IMG/VR virus record: IMGVR_UViG_3300031659_000082
Coordinates: 1 to 25,884 of that record
DNA from: a virus
DNA: 25,884 nucleotides
Reading direction: 5' to 3' (one strand)
Part shown: in pieces, positions 5,795-17,869 of the stretch
Numbering within the stretch: position 1 is the first letter of the stretch
How the letters are laid out: each line of letters begins with the position of its first letter
Made by a program: the position numbers and the translations under genes
The notes under the pieces: model-generated
Seen by the model: only the letters and a program-made list of their open reading frames with translations
Database searches by the model: none
What the model was told of the DNA's origin: nothing

Positions 5795-5823
5795 TTTACA
5801 TTTACTAGTGATTGTAGTATAAT
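5795..5823 (+). promoter_or_regulatory. Early-type promoter P3 firing straight into a terminator
   Basis: TTTACA (5795-5800), 17-base spacer, TATAAT (5818-5823) with the usual TAG prefix and ATAC suffix. The predicted start (about 5830) falls inside the 5' arm of the terminator hairpin at 5828-5863, so the transcript would be only about 40 bases. Confidence 0.75.
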
Positions 5824-5827
5824 ATAC

Positions 5828-5870
5828 CCCTCAAAGAGAATTTTAAACCACTCTCTTTGAGGGTTTTTTT
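5828..5870 (+). terminator. Strong intrinsic terminator after glyA
   Basis: A perfect 12-bp stem, CCCTCAAAGAGA (5828-5839) with TCTCTTTGAGGG (5852-5863), a 12-base loop, then seven T residues (5864-5870). It ends the early operon of phoH-exonuclease-glyA and also transcripts from promoter P3. Confidence 0.93.
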
Positions 5871-5897: not shown

Positions 5898-5926
5898 TTG
5901 ACAAAAAGGTAGAACCATAGTATAAT
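5898..5926 (+). promoter_or_regulatory. Early sigma-70-type promoter P4
   Basis: TTGACA (5898-5903), 17-base spacer, TATAAT (5921-5926). The spacer and flanks (GGTAGAACCATAG) recur almost unchanged at promoter P9 (19834-19862). It drives the nucleotidase-ligase-HNH unit. Confidence 0.92.
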
Positions 5927-5950: not shown

Positions 5951-6532
5951 ATTAAAGAAAATATAATATTGGTTGACTGTGATGGTGTACTATGTGACTG
6001 GGAATACTCATTTACTCAGTGGATGCACCACCAAGACATCCCAACAAAGAACATTAACGAGTATGACATTGCTAAGAGGTTTGAGTTAGATAAAGTTACT
6101 GCCAAGAGATTAGTCAGACTGTTTAATGAGTCTGCAGCAATCGCATTCTTACCACCTCTAAGAGATGCAGTGTATTACATGAAGAGACTTAATATGTTAC
6201 ATGGATATCGATTCCACTGTATTACATCATTAAGTAGTGATAGGTATGCCCAAAGATTGAGGTATCAGAACCTAGACCTACTATTCGGTAGGGAGTTGTG
6301 GGATGAAGTAATATGTCTACCCTGTGGCGCTGATAAAGATGACGCATTAGAGCCTTACAGAGACACGGGTTGTTTCTGGGTCGAAGATAAAGTTGGCAAC
6401 GCTGAACTGGGGGTTGAATTAGGTCTTAACTCTATCCTTGTAGCTCATACACACAACGCAAGTTATAGTGGAGAGATTCCAAGATTCCACAGATGGAAAG
6501 AAATCTATAAGCACATTACTGGAGAAGTGTAA
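5951..6532 (+). CDS. HAD-superfamily 5'(3')-deoxyribonucleotidase-like phosphatase, ATT start
   Basis: A 193-residue HAD phosphatase. Motif I is DCDGVLCDW (nucleophile and acid/base Asp), motif II is the Thr/Ser in CITSLSS, motif III the Lys in GADKDD, and motif IV VEDKVGNAELG. This fits 5'(3')-deoxyribonucleotidases, which dephosphorylate nucleotides; a phage could use it to shape dNTP pools. There is no ATG or GTG start. TTG at 5969 would delete the first beta strand (NIILV) before the catalytic Asp. ATT at 5951 restores it and has AAGGAG at 5938-5943, 7 bases upstream, so I take the rare ATT as the start. The stop overlaps the ligase start (TAATG). Confidence 0.8.
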   Translation: MKENIILVDCDGVLCDWEYSFTQWMHHQDIPTKNINEYDIAKRFELDKVTAKRLVRLFNESAAIAFLPPLRDAVYYMKRLNMLHGYRFHCITSLSSDRYAQRLRYQNLDLLFGRELWDEVICLPCGADKDDALEPYRDTGCFWVEDKVGNAELGVELGLNSILVAHTHNASYSGEIPRFHRWKEIYKHITGEV

Positions 6533-11974: not shown

Positions 11975-12452
11975 AATAACAGGAACCAATTTAGGCATAC
12001 TAGTAATAGCCTTATATTTTGTATCACAAGCAGTCTTGGCCGATGGTATAGTATTTAAGTTTAAGAGTCCGTCATTTAGTGGCCAAGGCGCTTCTGCCCA
12101 CTATTTAACTATTGAGAACCAAGAGAAGTCACGAAAAGACAAGATACAGGAAGATGTGCAAGCTGCCATAGAGAAAGCAGAAAGAGAAGCTAATAACACA
12201 ACCCAAGCTAAGTTTTTAAGGAACTTAGAGAGTAGAATATACGCACAGATTGCTAAACAGTTAGTTGATAATATGTTTGGTAATACTGAAAGCTCTACTG
12301 AAGGATTCTTTGAAATAGAGGGTAACTCTATTACTTATGAAACTATTATAGGCGCTGGCTCTGATGGAACGGACATCATTAGAATAACGGTACTTAGTGA
12401 TGATGGAACTACTACTACACTCGATGTTCCCGTCGGTTCGGGTTCGTTCTAA
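11964..12452 (+). CDS. csgF: CsgF-like curli assembly protein
   Basis: About 162 residues from ATG 11964 (ATG 11937 would add nine basic residues). A signal peptide ends near SQAVLA, and the mature N-terminus DGIVFKFKSPSFSGQ matches the CsgF hallmark, a stretch that in E. coli inserts into the CsgG pore as a second constriction (E. coli: MTFQFRNPNFGG). The later part (FLRNLESRIYAQIAKQL, then the strands ITYETIIGAG and DIIRITVLSDDGTTTTLDV) fits the CsgF helix and beta sheet. CsgF tethers and activates the nucleator at the cell surface. It directly precedes csgG (TAATG overlap), the expected partner. No CsgE or CsgC is seen. Confidence 0.87.
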   Translation: MKSKITGTNLGILVIALYFVSQAVLADGIVFKFKSPSFSGQGASAHYLTIENQEKSRKDKIQEDVQAAIEKAEREANNTTQAKFLRNLESRIYAQIAKQLVDNMFGNTESSTEGFFEIEGNSITYETIIGAGSDGTDIIRITVLSDDGTTTTLDVPVGSGSF

Positions 12453-13345
12453 TGCGTTTGGGGTATGTGGCATTTCTGCTATTATTAACAGGATGTGCTG
12501 GTATACCTTCAGTAGAGGATAGTTGTACTACAAAATTTATGACAGCCTTTGGAGAATGTTTAGAAGAGGCTGAGGTAGTGACATTACCAGCTTCTGAAAG
12601 ATTGTCTAATCTGCCAGCTGCAAAAGAAAGACCTATTGTTGCAGTTTACAGTTTTAAAGATTTAACAGGTCAAAGAAAGAGTAGGGAGAATCTTGCAGAT
12701 TTCTCTACCGCAGTGACACAAGGTGCAGAGGCATTTGTAATTGATGCATTAAAAACTGCAGGAAAGGGTACTTGGTTCCGAGTAGTAGAAAGAACTGGGT
12801 TGGATAACTTAGTTAAAGAAAGACAGATTATCAGATCGGCGAGAGAAGAGTTTGAGAAAAAAACAGAAGATAAGAAGCTGCAGCCATTACTCTTTGCTGG
12901 TATTATAATTGATGGTGGTATTATAGGATATGATTCCAACATCAGAAGTGGTGGACGGGGTGCAAGATACTTAGGTATTGGTTCATCTGTCAAGTATAAG
13001 AGGGATTCAGTAATCATAAGTTTAAGGGCAACCTCAACTCTTACTGGTGAAATTTTATTGAACGTACAGACTAAAAAATCTATCTTGTCTGTAGGTGGTG
13101 GTTATGATGTGTTTCGATTTGTTGATATGGATACTAAATTAATCGAAATTGAAGATGGTAGTAGTTTTAACGAGAGCGTTACTTATGCAACACGTGCAGC
13201 AATCGAAGAAGCAGTACTAGAGTTAATATACCAAGGCCACGATAGAGGTTACTGGGTAATAAAGGATGGTCATCGACACCCCCATCAGCACGATGGTACA
13301 AACGAAGGACATCCGACAAAAGGAGAAGAGGATGAACATGAATAA
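12452..13345 (+). CDS. csgG: CsgG-like outer-membrane curli secretion pore lipoprotein
   Basis: A 297-residue protein. Lipobox LTGC gives a lipidated Cys15, as in E. coli CsgG (277 residues). Family landmarks align in order: VAVYSFKDLTGQRK (63-76), NLADFSTAVTQGA (80-92), FRVVERTGLDNLVKERQIIR (109-128), IIGYDSNI (157-164), SGGRGARYLGIG (166-177), the transmembrane beta strands that follow, FRFVD (221-225) and GHDRGYW (262-268). CsgG forms a nonameric outer-membrane channel that exports unfolded curlin. A C-terminal extension rich in His (positions 274, 276, 278, 280, 287, 296) and acid residues is unusual. Coupled to csgF by TAATG. Confidence 0.93.
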   Translation: MRLGYVAFLLLLTGCAGIPSVEDSCTTKFMTAFGECLEEAEVVTLPASERLSNLPAAKERPIVAVYSFKDLTGQRKSRENLADFSTAVTQGAEAFVIDALKTAGKGTWFRVVERTGLDNLVKERQIIRSAREEFEKKTEDKKLQPLLFAGIIIDGGIIGYDSNIRSGGRGARYLGIGSSVKYKRDSVIISLRATSTLTGEILLNVQTKKSILSVGGGYDVFRFVDMDTKLIEIEDGSSFNESVTYATRAAIEEAVLELIYQGHDRGYWVIKDGHRHPHQHDGTNEGHPTKGEEDEHE

Positions 13346-14189
13346 AAGTTACATTTTTGTGATGTTTGGTCTTATATCAATGTCTAATGCAATTGCAGGC
13401 GATGCGAATGATAATGAAATATTTATTGAACAGTCTGGTAACAATGTTGAGCTTACTATTCAACAAATTGGTGCTGGTAACAAGTATGGTGGCGATAACT
13501 TTAGTGGAACGTCCATTGATATGACAATGACAGTTTCCGATTCATACTTGGATATATTACTTGATGGAGATTATAATAAAATGTTTGGTACTATGGACAC
13601 TACTGGTTCTACTATCAACAACTTTATTACTGGCGATTATAACTTGTGGAACCAAAAGATAGGTGTGGCTAATACGGCTGACACAATGACAATCGATTCG
13701 GCTATAACTGGTAGTACTAACACTATAGTATTCAGAGCAGGTAATGCTGACGATACTTATAATATATCTACACCATTATGGAATCAATCAAATCCAGAAG
13801 CATTCTGGACGGTAAGTGGTAGTGTTTGGTCGAGAACGGTTTCAGGACAAACTGCATATTGGGGTTCATGGACGCCAACTGAAGGATCTGCAGATAGTTT
13901 GAATATGGATTTAGATGTTGTCGGATCTGATAACACTTTAAATGTATTTGTTAATTCAACTAATGCTACATTCAATTGGGATGTAACTGGTTCAGATAAC
14001 TGGATTCAAACCACAATGGAAGATGGTTCAGATAACAATCAAACTGTTGCAGTAACTGGTGATTACAACTTTATATTTGTAGGCCAAGACACTGGCTCAA
14101 CTGTTGGGGTAACGAACAATGCAATACTTGATGCGACATTCAATACAACACATTCCGACATTAATATTATACAGTCTGACGCTAACTAG
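13332..14189 (+). CDS. Curlin-like secreted repeat protein 1
   Basis: A 285-residue protein; start ATG 13332 (or 13338) with AGGAG at 13321-13325. A signal peptide ends at NAIA before GDANDNEI. Mature N-terminus: two curlin-type repeats, NEIFIEQSGNN and ELTIQQIGAGN, matching the Q-x-G-x-x-N style of CsgA/CsgB. Degenerate repeats with G-[DS]-x-N turns follow every 20-30 residues (DGDYN, TGDYN, VGSDN, TGSDN, DGSDNN, TGDYN). The composition is rich in Asn, Thr, Gly and Asp, with almost no Lys/Arg and no Cys, which suits an extracellular amyloid or beta-solenoid fibre subunit exported through CsgG. The last 71 bases overlap the FecR gene in another frame. Confidence 0.78.
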   Translation: MNMNKSYIFVMFGLISMSNAIAGDANDNEIFIEQSGNNVELTIQQIGAGNKYGGDNFSGTSIDMTMTVSDSYLDILLDGDYNKMFGTMDTTGSTINNFITGDYNLWNQKIGVANTADTMTIDSAITGSTNTIVFRAGNADDTYNISTPLWNQSNPEAFWTVSGSVWSRTVSGQTAYWGSWTPTEGSADSLNMDLDVVGSDNTLNVFVNSTNATFNWDVTGSDNWIQTTMEDGSDNNQTVAVTGDYNFIFVGQDTGSTVGVTNNAILDATFNTTHSDINIIQSDAN

Positions 14190-15282
14190 CATATTTCTTA
14201 TAGGTTCGGTTAACGCCGAATCTATAGGAGGTATTACTGAACAGAATGGAGTTGCATCACTGGTTAGAAGTGGTGGTGAAGAGATTACAGTATCGGGTTC
14301 TTCGGTACCCAATATAGAATTAAATGATACTGCCGTTACTGGTAATGGTAGAATGCTGATTGAGTTCTTAGATGAAGAAGAGCTGTCTATTATAGAACAC
14401 ACTCGTATCTACATAGATAAAGCATATTATGATCCAGACCCATCTAAATCTAAGATGGCAATTCGTATGGTACAGGGAACTGCTAGGTTTACCTCAGGCC
14501 GTGGGAAAAGAATTAAAAAATCCAATGTGCAATTATCAACACCAACTGCTGAGATAGCTATACTCGGTACTGACTTTACTACAACCATTGATGAGATAGG
14601 TCAATCACTTATTATTTTACTACCAGATGAAAAGACTGGTTTGTCTTCAGGTAAAATTATCATAAGCAATGCTGGTGGTACTGTAACCCTAGAAGAAGCA
14701 TATCAAGCATCTATTATATCATCATACGACCGTGCTCCTAGCTCACCCGTAATACTATCTGGTATTGACACTAGTATGATCAGTAATATATTCATTGTTT
14801 CAGAGCCTAAAGAGATTAAAGCAGTGAAACAACAAGAAGGTATTATAGCAGATAAAGATTCTGGTAATATACTTGACGTTGACTTCTTAGAATTTAATGA
14901 GTTAGAAACCGATTACCTAGAATATGATGATTTAGAATTTAGTGAGCTAGATATTGATTACTTGGATGTTGATTTTCTACAAGACGTATTAGATGTTCTC
15001 CAAGAATTAGATAAGGAAACCGGTTTAGATAGAAGTGCTTTAAAAAATAATATAGACCTTAGGGGAACTAAAATTGGATTCGATACAGATACTCAATACA
15101 ACAGTATAATTGATAAGGGTGCTAATACCGTAAAATTCTTTAGGAATGTTGATGGAGTTATAAGTATAAGTATGTTACTTTCACAATCTGCTACGATTAG
15201 AACAGTATCAAGTCAAAAAGAATCAGCAATAATATTAGGAGATGGTCAGGGTATTATAATTAATATCACACAGATACAATGA
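14119..15282 (+). CDS. Secreted FecR-domain protein with acidic pentapeptide-like repeats
   Basis: A 387-residue protein. Signal peptide (hydrophobic LILYSLTLTSIFLIGSVNA), then a FecR-type domain about 72-170 (NGRMLIEFLDEEELSI, VQGTARFTSGRGKR, STPTAEIAILGTDFT). In FecR-type regulators this is the periplasmic signal-sensing domain; stand-alone secreted versions often lie next to CHASE2 cyclases. Residues 255-289 hold seven five-residue units of the form [DNS]-x-L-[ED/Q]-x (DFLEF, NELET, DYLEY, DDLEF, SELDI, DYLDV, DFLQD), an acidic pentapeptide-like helix. There is no transmembrane anchor or sigma-factor partner, so it may signal through the cyclase. The start lies 71 bases inside curlin 1. 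Confidence 0.8.
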   Translation: MQYLMRHSIQHIPTLILYSLTLTSIFLIGSVNAESIGGITEQNGVASLVRSGGEEITVSGSSVPNIELNDTAVTGNGRMLIEFLDEEELSIIEHTRIYIDKAYYDPDPSKSKMAIRMVQGTARFTSGRGKRIKKSNVQLSTPTAEIAILGTDFTTTIDEIGQSLIILLPDEKTGLSSGKIIISNAGGTVTLEEAYQASIISSYDRAPSSPVILSGIDTSMISNIFIVSEPKEIKAVKQQEGIIADKDSGNILDVDFLEFNELETDYLEYDDLEFSELDIDYLDVDFLQDVLDVLQELDKETGLDRSALKNNIDLRGTKIGFDTDTQYNSIIDKGANTVKFFRNVDGVISISMLLSQSATIRTVSSQKESAIILGDGQGIIINITQIQ

Positions 15283-16055
15283 TGAACAGATTTTTAAATT
15301 GCACAGCAATATCGTTTTGGGTTGCTTATCTTATAGTATCATGTCAACCAGCCAATGGTGATAATGAGATATATGTAACTCAGACTGGTGATAACCTTAT
15401 GTTAGGATACCGACAAGAAGGTGATAACAATATGATAGATATAGTATTAGACGGGTATCAATTGGATACAGATATCCTACAAGAAGGTAATAGAAACGAA
15501 ATACTTAAAAAATCTCAGGGCATTAGTGGCGACTATAACCAAGTAGTAGTAGAACAATGGAATAACACTAATAGTACTGACGTAAATAAAATATGGATTG
15601 ATATTGATGGGGATAATAATGCTGTTGATGTAGGTCAAGGGTGTAAATTCTATTACTCTAATAGCACAGAATGCAGCAGAGATACCCACGAAGATGCAGG
15701 CCATAATATGGAAATCAATATTGATGGTAGTAATAATGGAATACGTGGTGGACAAAAGTCGGGTAGTGCTAATCCAGACCACGATTTACTAATAGATATT
15801 AATAGTGATAATAACTCTGTGTTCTTTACACAAGCGGGATCGGGCTCTAAAGATTTAGATTTAACTATTAATAATGATGGCAACGCGGTAAGTATCCATC
15901 AACATTACGGTTCTCATAATGCCACAGTAACTCTTGATGGCACATCACCTACTAGCTTAAGTTTAATACAGGCAGGCGGCCCAAGTAAGAGTTATAACTT
16001 AATACAGAACTGTCTTACTATAGGTGGTTGCTCTGTGTCGGTTACACAAAACTAA
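15279..16055 (+). CDS. Curlin-like repeat protein 2, probable lipoprotein
   Basis: A 258-residue protein. The N-terminal helix ends in a lipobox-like IVSC (Cys22), so it may be lipidated and held at the outer membrane; cleavage after PANG is the alternative. The mature start GDNEIYVTQTGDN followed by YRQEGDNN parallels the curlin repeats of protein 1, and further units recur (SGDYNQVVVEQ, DGDNNAVDVGQG, DGSNNGIRGGQ, SDNNSVFFTQAG). Two cysteine pairs (GCKFYYSNSTEC; NCLTIGGC) could form disulfides. A surface-anchored curlin relative would suit a nucleator role like CsgB (inference). The start overlaps the FecR stop as ATGA. Confidence 0.75.
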   Translation: MMNRFLNCTAISFWVAYLIVSCQPANGDNEIYVTQTGDNLMLGYRQEGDNNMIDIVLDGYQLDTDILQEGNRNEILKKSQGISGDYNQVVVEQWNNTNSTDVNKIWIDIDGDNNAVDVGQGCKFYYSNSTECSRDTHEDAGHNMEINIDGSNNGIRGGQKSGSANPDHDLLIDINSDNNSVFFTQAGSGSKDLDLTINNDGNAVSIHQHYGSHNATVTLDGTSPTSLSLIQAGGPSKSYNLIQNCLTIGGCSVSVTQN

Positions 16056-17869
16056 TGTATGACTGGAAAGTAGTATTACTCACTATAGCATTATTAGTAA
16101 CAGTAAGAGTTATGAATCCAAAATTAGTCGAACAGTTTCGGTTAAACTACTTTGATTCTCTACAATCATATCAAGAACCAATTAAATCAGATAACATAGT
16201 CATAGTAGATATAGACGAAAAGTCATTAGATAGGTTTGGTCAATTTCCATTTAGTAGGGACTTATATGCAGATTGGTTAAATCAATCTCCAGAAAATAAT
16301 GCTTATGTGTTTAATATGGGATTCACCGAGGATGATAGGTTCGGCAAAGATCACGAATTAGCTATAGCCATGGCAGAAAGAGATGTTATATTATCATCGT
16401 TCGTTAGTAGTAAACCCCAAGGAGAAAAACCTAGTAGGGGATTCGGGAAACTAGGTAAAGGTGATCCAACCGATTGGTTGTATGCTTATCCCGGAATGAG
16501 AAACCCTGTTGTTGCCGAGGATGCTGACGGAGTTGGAACGGTATCGGTTGCTCCCTCAGTAGATGGTATAGTGAGAGAATCACCTTTAGCAATAATGGCT
16601 AACGGTCATCTATATCCTTCAGTCGCATTAGAGATACTACGAGTGTGGGAGTTTCAGCCTAACCTAGCAATTAAGATTAAAGAAGCGGGTGTTGAGTGGG
16701 TAAGAATGGGTACTCTGCCACCAATGTATACAACACCGAACTCTAATGTTCAAATAGCATACTGGAACAAATATGAACGTATATCATTTGGAGACCCACT
16801 ACCGGATGAAAAGATAATCATTCTAGGATTGAGTGCAGGTGGATTAGTCAACCCAGTCCCGACTCCGACTGGTGCTATGTTACCACACGACATTCAAGCA
16901 CATCTAATATCTACTGTAGTGAACGGTATCCAAATTCAAAGACCATGGTACGCCGAGCAGATTGAAATTCTGTTGATTATAGTACTATCATTAATAATAT
17001 TACTTATTGTATATCAAACTCCAACTTATATGTCTGCTTGTATATCACTGGGTTTAATGGGTGGGGCAATGTATGCAGGTTATCATTTTTGGATGGCTGA
17101 ACTTTTACTGCTTGATGTTTTATTCCCTACAGTAGCGGCCTTTGTCGTATTCACTCATGCTACATTTAATAGATTCTATGTCACATACAAGTTAAAAGAA
17201 TTGATTAAAGGCCAATTTGGCACATACCTATCACCAGATATGGTCTATATGTTACAGAAAGATCCCTCACTATTAGCACTCGGTGGTGAAAGAAAGGAGA
17301 TGTCATTCTTGTTTATGGACATTTGTGGGTTCACTCCCATCAGCGAATACTATAAGAACAAAGACGACCCCGAAGGATTGGTGCTATTGGTTAATGAATT
17401 CTTAGATGCTATGACTAAAATCATACTAAACAACGGTGGTACTATAGACAAATATATGGGCGACTGTGTTATGGCGTTCTGGAATGCTCCAATAGCATGC
17501 GATAACCATGCAGAGATGGCAGTTAAATCATCAATAGAGATAGAGGCAAAGACGAATGAACTTAAAACGATATACCAAGAGAGGGGACTTCCAGATATTA
17601 ATGTAGGTACTGGTGTTAATACGGGTGATTGTATTGTTGGGAATATGGGCAGTGAGTCGAGATTTGATTACTCTGTTATAGGAGATGCTGTTAACCTTGC
17701 AGCAAGACTAGAGGCTACCGCCGCTAGGGGTGAGTACGTAGAGTACAAAACAATCATATCCTCTTTCACTAGAGACCAACTTCCAGAGAGCTATATATGC
17801 GAAGAGATTGGTAATATCAAGGTAAAAGGTAAAGATGAACTTATAACCATATATGCTCCTAGGTTATAA
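16055..17869 (+). CDS. CHASE2 sensor-class III adenylate cyclase
   Basis: 604 residues from ATG 16055 (TAATG with curlin 2). N-terminal membrane helix (5-20), a periplasmic CHASE2 domain (about 25-300: FDSLQ, IVIVDIDEKSLDRFGQFPFSR, later DEKIIILG), three membrane helices (about 303-370), then a cytoplasmic class III cyclase domain. Catalytic residues are all visible: metal-binding Asp422 (FMDICGF) and Asp470 (YMGDC), adenine-binding Lys466, transition-state Asn547 and Arg551 (VNLAARLE). Ser540 replaces the tmAC Asp, close to the Thr of bacterial class IIIb enzymes, so ATP is the likely substrate and cAMP the product. Last gene of the late operon; it probably reads a periplasmic cue, perhaps via the FecR protein. 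Confidence 0.92.
   Translation: MYDWKVVLLTIALLVTVRVMNPKLVEQFRLNYFDSLQSYQEPIKSDNIVIVDIDEKSLDRFGQFPFSRDLYADWLNQSPENNAYVFNMGFTEDDRFGKDHELAIAMAERDVILSSFVSSKPQGEKPSRGFGKLGKGDPTDWLYAYPGMRNPVVAEDADGVGTVSVAPSVDGIVRESPLAIMANGHLYPSVALEILRVWEFQPNLAIKIKEAGVEWVRMGTLPPMYTTPNSNVQIAYWNKYERISFGDPLPDEKIIILGLSAGGLVNPVPTPTGAMLPHDIQAHLISTVVNGIQIQRPWYAEQIEILLIIVLSLIILLIVYQTPTYMSACISLGLMGGAMYAGYHFWMAELLLLDVLFPTVAAFVVFTHATFNRFYVTYKLKELIKGQFGTYLSPDMVYMLQKDPSLLALGGERKEMSFLFMDICGFTPISEYYKNKDDPEGLVLLVNEFLDAMTKIILNNGGTIDKYMGDCVMAFWNAPIACDNHAEMAVKSSIEIEAKTNELKTIYQERGLPDINVGTGVNTGDCIVGNMGSESRFDYSVIGDAVNLAARLEATAARGEYVEYKTIISSFTRDQLPESYICEEIGNIKVKGKDELITIYAPRL

Follow-up and report, generated by a model that had tools for sequence, protein, structure and literature searches.

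A conserved early promoter placed directly before a terminator in diverged marine T4-like phages

What purpose could an early promoter serve that has no gene of its own? The stretch of DNA analysed here (the window, 25,884 nucleotides) is a 25.9-kb genome fragment from a marine T4-like phage. In it, a promoter termed P1 stands upstream of a nucleotidase-like gene and is followed at once by a stem-loop and a run of T residues (Table 1). As a conserved promoter lies directly before a terminator, an RNA of only ~40 nt is expected. By gp32, the closest named phages are Pelagibacter phage HTVC008M (56%) and cyanophages, and the genes that flank the P1 unit (PhoH, exonuclease, nucleotidase-like and ligase) are members of phage families.

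Table 1. Features around P1, in window coordinates
Feature	Position	Strand	Basis
glyA (serine hydroxymethyltransferase), gene upstream of P1	4652..5791	+	Pfam SHMT, 1e-148
P1, early sigma-70 promoter, TTTACA-17-TATAAT	5795..5823	+	Hexamers kept in four relatives, spacer diverged
Intrinsic terminator: 12-bp stem (5828-5839/5852-5863), loop of 12, T7 (5864-5870)	5828..5870	+	Fold; compensatory A-U/G-C pair versus L010
Predicted P1 transcript, about 35-41 nt, without ORF	5830..5870	+	Position of the -10 and T-run
Nested compact hairpin, ACTCTC-TTT-GAGGGT	5850..5864	+	Counterpart of the terminator hairpin of relatives
P2, perfect early promoter, TTGACA-17-TATAAT	5898..5926	+	
Nucleotidase/phosphatase-like gene (phrog_420, a family without annotated function), 3' of P2	5951..6532	+	

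P1 is an early promoter that abuts an intrinsic terminator

P1 consists of a -35 hexamer, TTTACA (5795-5800), a 17-nt spacer and a -10 hexamer, TATAAT (5818-5823), and matches the consensus at 11 of 12 positions. Its predicted start, 5830, is 7 nt past the -10. These coordinates bear out the first-pass annotation, which had described a promoter of this form between glyA and the nucleotidase promoter, with its start at about 5830 within the 5' arm of a 12-bp stem. The other early promoters of the window have gtgTTGACA and TAGTATAATATAC(C)C in common; P1 carries the full extended TAGTATAATATAC motif, but its -35 is a variant. C residues immediately 5' of the start site are a feature of early promoters in RB49, RB69 and 44RR (PMC1524935). 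With TTGACA/TATAAT-like hexamers that are separated by 17 nt and more conserved than the spacer between them, P1 has the character of a sigma-70 early promoter.

The stem-loop begins at -2 relative to the P1 start. Its 5' arm, CCCTCAAAGAGA, contains that start, and its 3' arm, TCTCTTTGAGGG, runs directly into seven T residues. RNA folding of this 12-bp structure gave -18.4 kcal/mol (z = -5.2), which none of 200 shuffled sequences equalled, and no other strong terminator was found in the first 20 kb of the window. A G+C-containing hairpin with an immediate T-run is what an intrinsic terminator requires, and the long stem differs between the window and L010 by one compensatory pair (CAAAGAG/CTCTTTG versus CAGAGAG/CTCTCTG), a single change among few sequences. 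RNA initiated at 5830 would retain 10 of the 12 stem pairs (-12.5 kcal/mol). The T-run itself has 7, 8 and 6 residues in the window and two near-identical phages (L008 and L009, respectively), which may reflect slippage or assembly.

Three of the relatives (L013, L016 and L051) have a poor long stem but retain a compact CCCCTC/GAGGGG hairpin nested in its 3' arm. The nested hairpin of relatives, CCCCTC-(TCT/TCG/TTTT)-GAGGGG, folds with -9.6 to -11.5 kcal/mol and lies wholly within the P1 transcript; its window counterpart is weak (-5.0 kcal/mol), and here the long hairpin would carry the work. The presence of two mutually exclusive hairpins in the 3' arm could point to a regulated leader, in which P1 boosts the nucleotidase-ligase operon whenever the terminator is overcome, for example by a phage-modified polymerase or by a switch between long and nested hairpin. 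In L013, L016 and L051 the read-through RNA is predicted to favour an upstream fold unlike that of the P1 RNA. However, the operon already has a perfect promoter in P2, the window, with its dominant long hairpin, does not conserve the alternative folds, and no factor that would act in this way is known. We therefore regard attenuation at P1 as improbable. In another phage (L240, reverse strand, 2284), CCCCTCTTCGGAGGGGTTTT lies about 40 nt behind a promoter and precedes a ribosome-binding site and ATG, an arrangement that is possibly an attenuated leader.

P2 lies 103 nt 3' of P1 and 27 nt past the terminator. Mechanical calling set the start of the nucleotidase ORF behind it at a TTG (5969). 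At 5951-5953, where relatives have the ATG start codon of this gene, the window, L008 and L009 have ATT, and the window gene may start at either ATT (5951) or the TTG.

The promoter-terminator unit is conserved in diverged phages

Among 80 nucleotidase loci, the unit was found before P2 and the nucleotidase-like gene in four diverged phages (L010, L013, L016 and L051), as well as in the window. L008 and L009 are near-copies of the window and were counted with it once, giving five distinct units. Although nucleotidase DNA identity among these five phages falls to 70%, mean pairwise identity of the units is 93% in the -35 and 100% in the -10 (TATAATATAC), compared with 55% in the spacer. The distance from the -10 to the start of the T-run is 40-42 nt in all five, and 31 of the ~52 columns from the -10 through the T-run are invariant, with a conserved interior of AAAGAGA-AATTTTA-ACC. 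A search for the same unit in related phages had been recommended by the first-pass annotation, which held that a hairpin conserved without its -35 and -10 would speak against its reading. Because the unit recurs with both hexamers conserved, that pattern was not observed.

We surveyed the window and 160 related loci for promoters matching the consensus at 11 or more of 12 positions, which gave 253 distinct ones. A terminator at most 60 nt downstream occurred at seven of them; five are the unit described here and two are in coding DNA. These numbers bear on the simplest alternative, an A+T-rich promoter-like sequence that happens to precede an ordinary glyA terminator. At 38% GC the window is rich in A+T, and it has roughly as many weak promoter matches as shuffled sequence does (80 versus 70). 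However, P1 combines an 11/12 match with the extended motif, this is kept in five units, and the expectation for such promoter-terminator pairs from shuffles is 0.02. Conservation largely refutes a chance origin, which we consider very improbable, and on the sequence comparison the unit does not appear to be an accident.

The unit is present in one copy per unit-bearing fragment, as scanned in these incomplete genomes, and its distribution on the nucleotidase tree is patchy (5 changes), with the close sisters L011, L012 and L014 missing it. Exact and degenerate DNA patterns run against all IMG/VR viral contigs returned, beyond the five units, chance matches only; almost all of these lacked a -35, and the hairpin of the unit was present in none. 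Scanning whole related records revealed it nowhere besides the known sites. No DNA-similar phage record was found, a 68-nt query matching terminators by chance only; in Phage C48C1 and DLP6 the nucleotidase gene is packed behind another gene, which leaves no space for the unit. Pattern matches in L170/L173 were rejected as they lie inside a tail gene, as were promoter-into-terminator look-alikes in L116/L119, whose hairpin is within signal-peptide coding sequence. The first-pass annotation had also proposed a polymerase trap, which finds no support: the unit is single-copy and shows nothing specific to a trap.

The P1-P2 slot varies between relatives and P1 itself is chimeric

The unit is embedded in a collinear backbone of PhoH, exonuclease, a variable segment, nucleotidase and ligase. 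The gene upstream of it is glyA in the window, a 54-amino-acid ORF in L010 and a 73-82-amino-acid ORF in L013, L016 and L051. What lies in the P1-P2 slot changes as well: a terminator in the five units, a 56-amino-acid ORF with a ribosome-binding site in L012, and a 96-nt strongly structured element in L014 and L015, whereas many other nucleotidase loci lack the second promoter altogether. By this comparison the P1-P2 slot is a site of gene shuffling.

The 96-nt element is an inverted repeat, GGTAATTTTTAGTGAAGGTACTAGGTTCGGGACATCAT...CCTAGTATCTTCCCTAAAAATTACTT, that was seen in L014 (4280-4377), L015, L057 (5814-5910), L058 and L060. Its predicted RNA fold has -33.6 kcal/mol (z = -5.8), the stem covaries between L014 and L057, and no match was found in Rfam. 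In L014 and L015 it is placed behind a perfect early promoter. It is a candidate for a structured RNA or a MITE-like insert.

The slot of L012, in which the corresponding promoter, the 56-amino-acid ORF and P2 follow each other, suggests that P1 might be a remnant, its own gene deleted and the promoter left joined to the terminator, as the first-pass annotation had considered. Each other early promoter of the window drives short ORFs, and the slot is hypervariable. However, the promoter of the L012 ORF has a different spacer from that of the P1 unit, and there is no trace of the hairpin. In addition, the five diverged phages have all kept the hexamers, the fixed length and the interior, of which decay would probably have lost one. 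The idea of a lost gene thus retains the L012 counterpart in its favour but accords poorly with this constancy, and we hold it to be rather unlikely.

P1 of the window resembles two different lineages. Its left part, from the glyA stop to ~5809, matches L090 at 20 of 21 and L062 at 19 of 21 positions; both have a single promoter here, which in L090 follows glyA and in L062 drives the nucleotidase gene directly. The right half, from ~5815, matches L010, to which the final 13 nt of P1, up to and including the -10, are identical, and the hairpin also matches L010. The window P1 is thus a recombinant of the promoters of two lineages, most simply explained by a crossover within the promoter that left its 17-nt spacing intact. 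The locus thereby catches a recombination joint within a promoter, its spacing preserved.

The predicted P1 RNA has no apparent target in the window

The first-pass annotation had concluded that P1 can yield nothing but a tiny hairpin RNA, and the predicted transcript agrees with this. It had further suggested a decoy or sponge RNA. We found no stretch of at least 11 nt elsewhere in the window that is complementary to the P1 RNA, which leaves that role unsupported, and an Rfam search of the unit gave no family match.

P1 could nonetheless be a dedicated small-RNA gene, whose stable, U-tailed hairpin RNA of ~40 nt would act in trans on RNA or protein of phage or host. The conserved RNA interior is the main point in favour, together with the strong conserved promoter, the fixed length and the compensatory stem change, and in L014/L015 a different structured element, apparently non-coding, follows an early promoter in this slot. 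The missing target within the window, the absence of the unit from close sisters and the lack of an Rfam match, with five sequences only to compare, argue against such a gene, and we judge it unlikely. A broader version is quite doubtful: marine T4-like phages would carry a cassette-exchanged family of ~40-nt hairpin RNAs, each with a near-perfect early promoter dedicated to it and ranking with the shortest RNA genes to be transcribed independently, while in sisters a different small structured element takes the slot. If a function were found for the tiny RNA, it would count as a minimal RNA gene of a phage.

In T4, no trans-acting small RNA had been characterised by 2010, and its small RNAs, RNAC and RNAD, originate in the tRNA region (PMC3014915). 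Like these, the predicted P1 RNA is a small transcript of a T4-like phage with no assigned role, but no sequence or positional link between them and the window unit was found.

A proposed boundary cassette between two early transcription units

As the best explanation, to which we assign about an even chance, we propose that the unit is a promoter-terminator boundary cassette between two early transcription units that persists by recombinational shuffling and gives off the ~40-nt RNA as a by-product. The stem-loop and T-run would end transcription arriving from upstream (from glyA in the window), and P2 would restart it for the nucleotidase-ligase operon. P1 would be a true early promoter for host sigma-70 whose transcripts enter the terminator at once and stop after ~40 nt, forming a gene-less unit. 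Near-identical early-promoter sequences could be the joints where phages swap cassettes and adjacent genes; such exchange would keep and spread promoter-terminator units, with the window P1 as one such joint. The RNA itself is probably a by-product.

Several observations are in line with this cassette model: all five distinct units lie upstream of one and the same nucleotidase-like gene, the hexamers are conserved beside a diverged spacer, the -10-to-T distance is constant, upstream genes and slot contents vary, P1 is a hybrid, the tree distribution is patchy and RB49 offers an analogue. Against it, P1 is dispensable for insulation and restart, for which terminator and P2 suffice, there is one copy per genome fragment, and the interior is conserved too, which a pure by-product need not be. 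If the RNA has no function, the unit would clearly exemplify how transcription units without a gene persist as shuffling cassettes.

PeSLs of T4-type phages have reportedly been described by Arbiol et al. in 2010 and Comeau et al. in 2014. The term denotes promoter-early stem-loop cassettes, as far as the papers that cite them (PMC4503421, PMC3950731) describe them. In the RB49 sequence, 16 of 62 early promoters carry an internal inverted repeat (such as TTGACAGGGGATCGGTGATCCCCTATAAT); these PeSLs occur in many copies, with the stem-loop between -35 and -10 or around the -10, without a T-run, and transcription restarts behind them. Like PeSLs, the window unit is an intergenic composite of a strong sigma-70 early promoter and a stem-loop in a T4-like phage, located at a junction where relatives have gained, lost or exchanged genes. 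Unlike in RB49 PeSLs, its stem-loop lies 3' of the -10, with a T-run, rather than inside the promoter, so that P1 would fire into it, and its single copy per fragment means that it is not a dispersed shuffling cassette of the RB49 kind. In stem-loop position and copy number the unit thus departs from PeSLs, while sharing their composite nature and shuffling junction. Judged from its layout, it appears to work like a shuffling cassette, but with this different geometry we do not class it as a PeSL; it is a promoter-terminator composite of another geometry that diverged marine phages have conserved. P1 of L013, L016 and L051 and P2 of L013 and L016 show weak repeats around the -10, which are absent in the window P1. 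With the P2 repeat, GGGTATA/TATACCC (L013, 5930-5965; L016, 4184-4219), the PeSL geometry of RB49 occurs in a marine phage.

Terminators and early promoters of T4-like phages have been surveyed (PMC1524935), and RB49 has ordinary terminator-promoter junctions (L181, 3586-3707 and 17233-17332). The window terminator followed by P2 resembles these and would form the usual insulation-and-restart junction. Unlike ordinary junctions, it has an extra conserved early promoter, P1, abutting the terminator upstream, which would add a gene-less early unit of ~40 nt.

A curli-like gene cluster in the window

Further downstream, positions 12452-17869 hold a cluster encoding CsgG, two Q-x-G-x-x-N repeat proteins, a FecR-domain protein and a CHASE2-adenylate/guanylate cyclase. 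In pelagimyophages, CsgF/CsgG have been reported, with CsgA/CsgB missing (PMC7029224). The two repeat proteins (13266-14189 and 15279-16055), which gave no Pfam match at 0.001, resemble curlin subunits and are candidates for the missing CsgA/CsgB.
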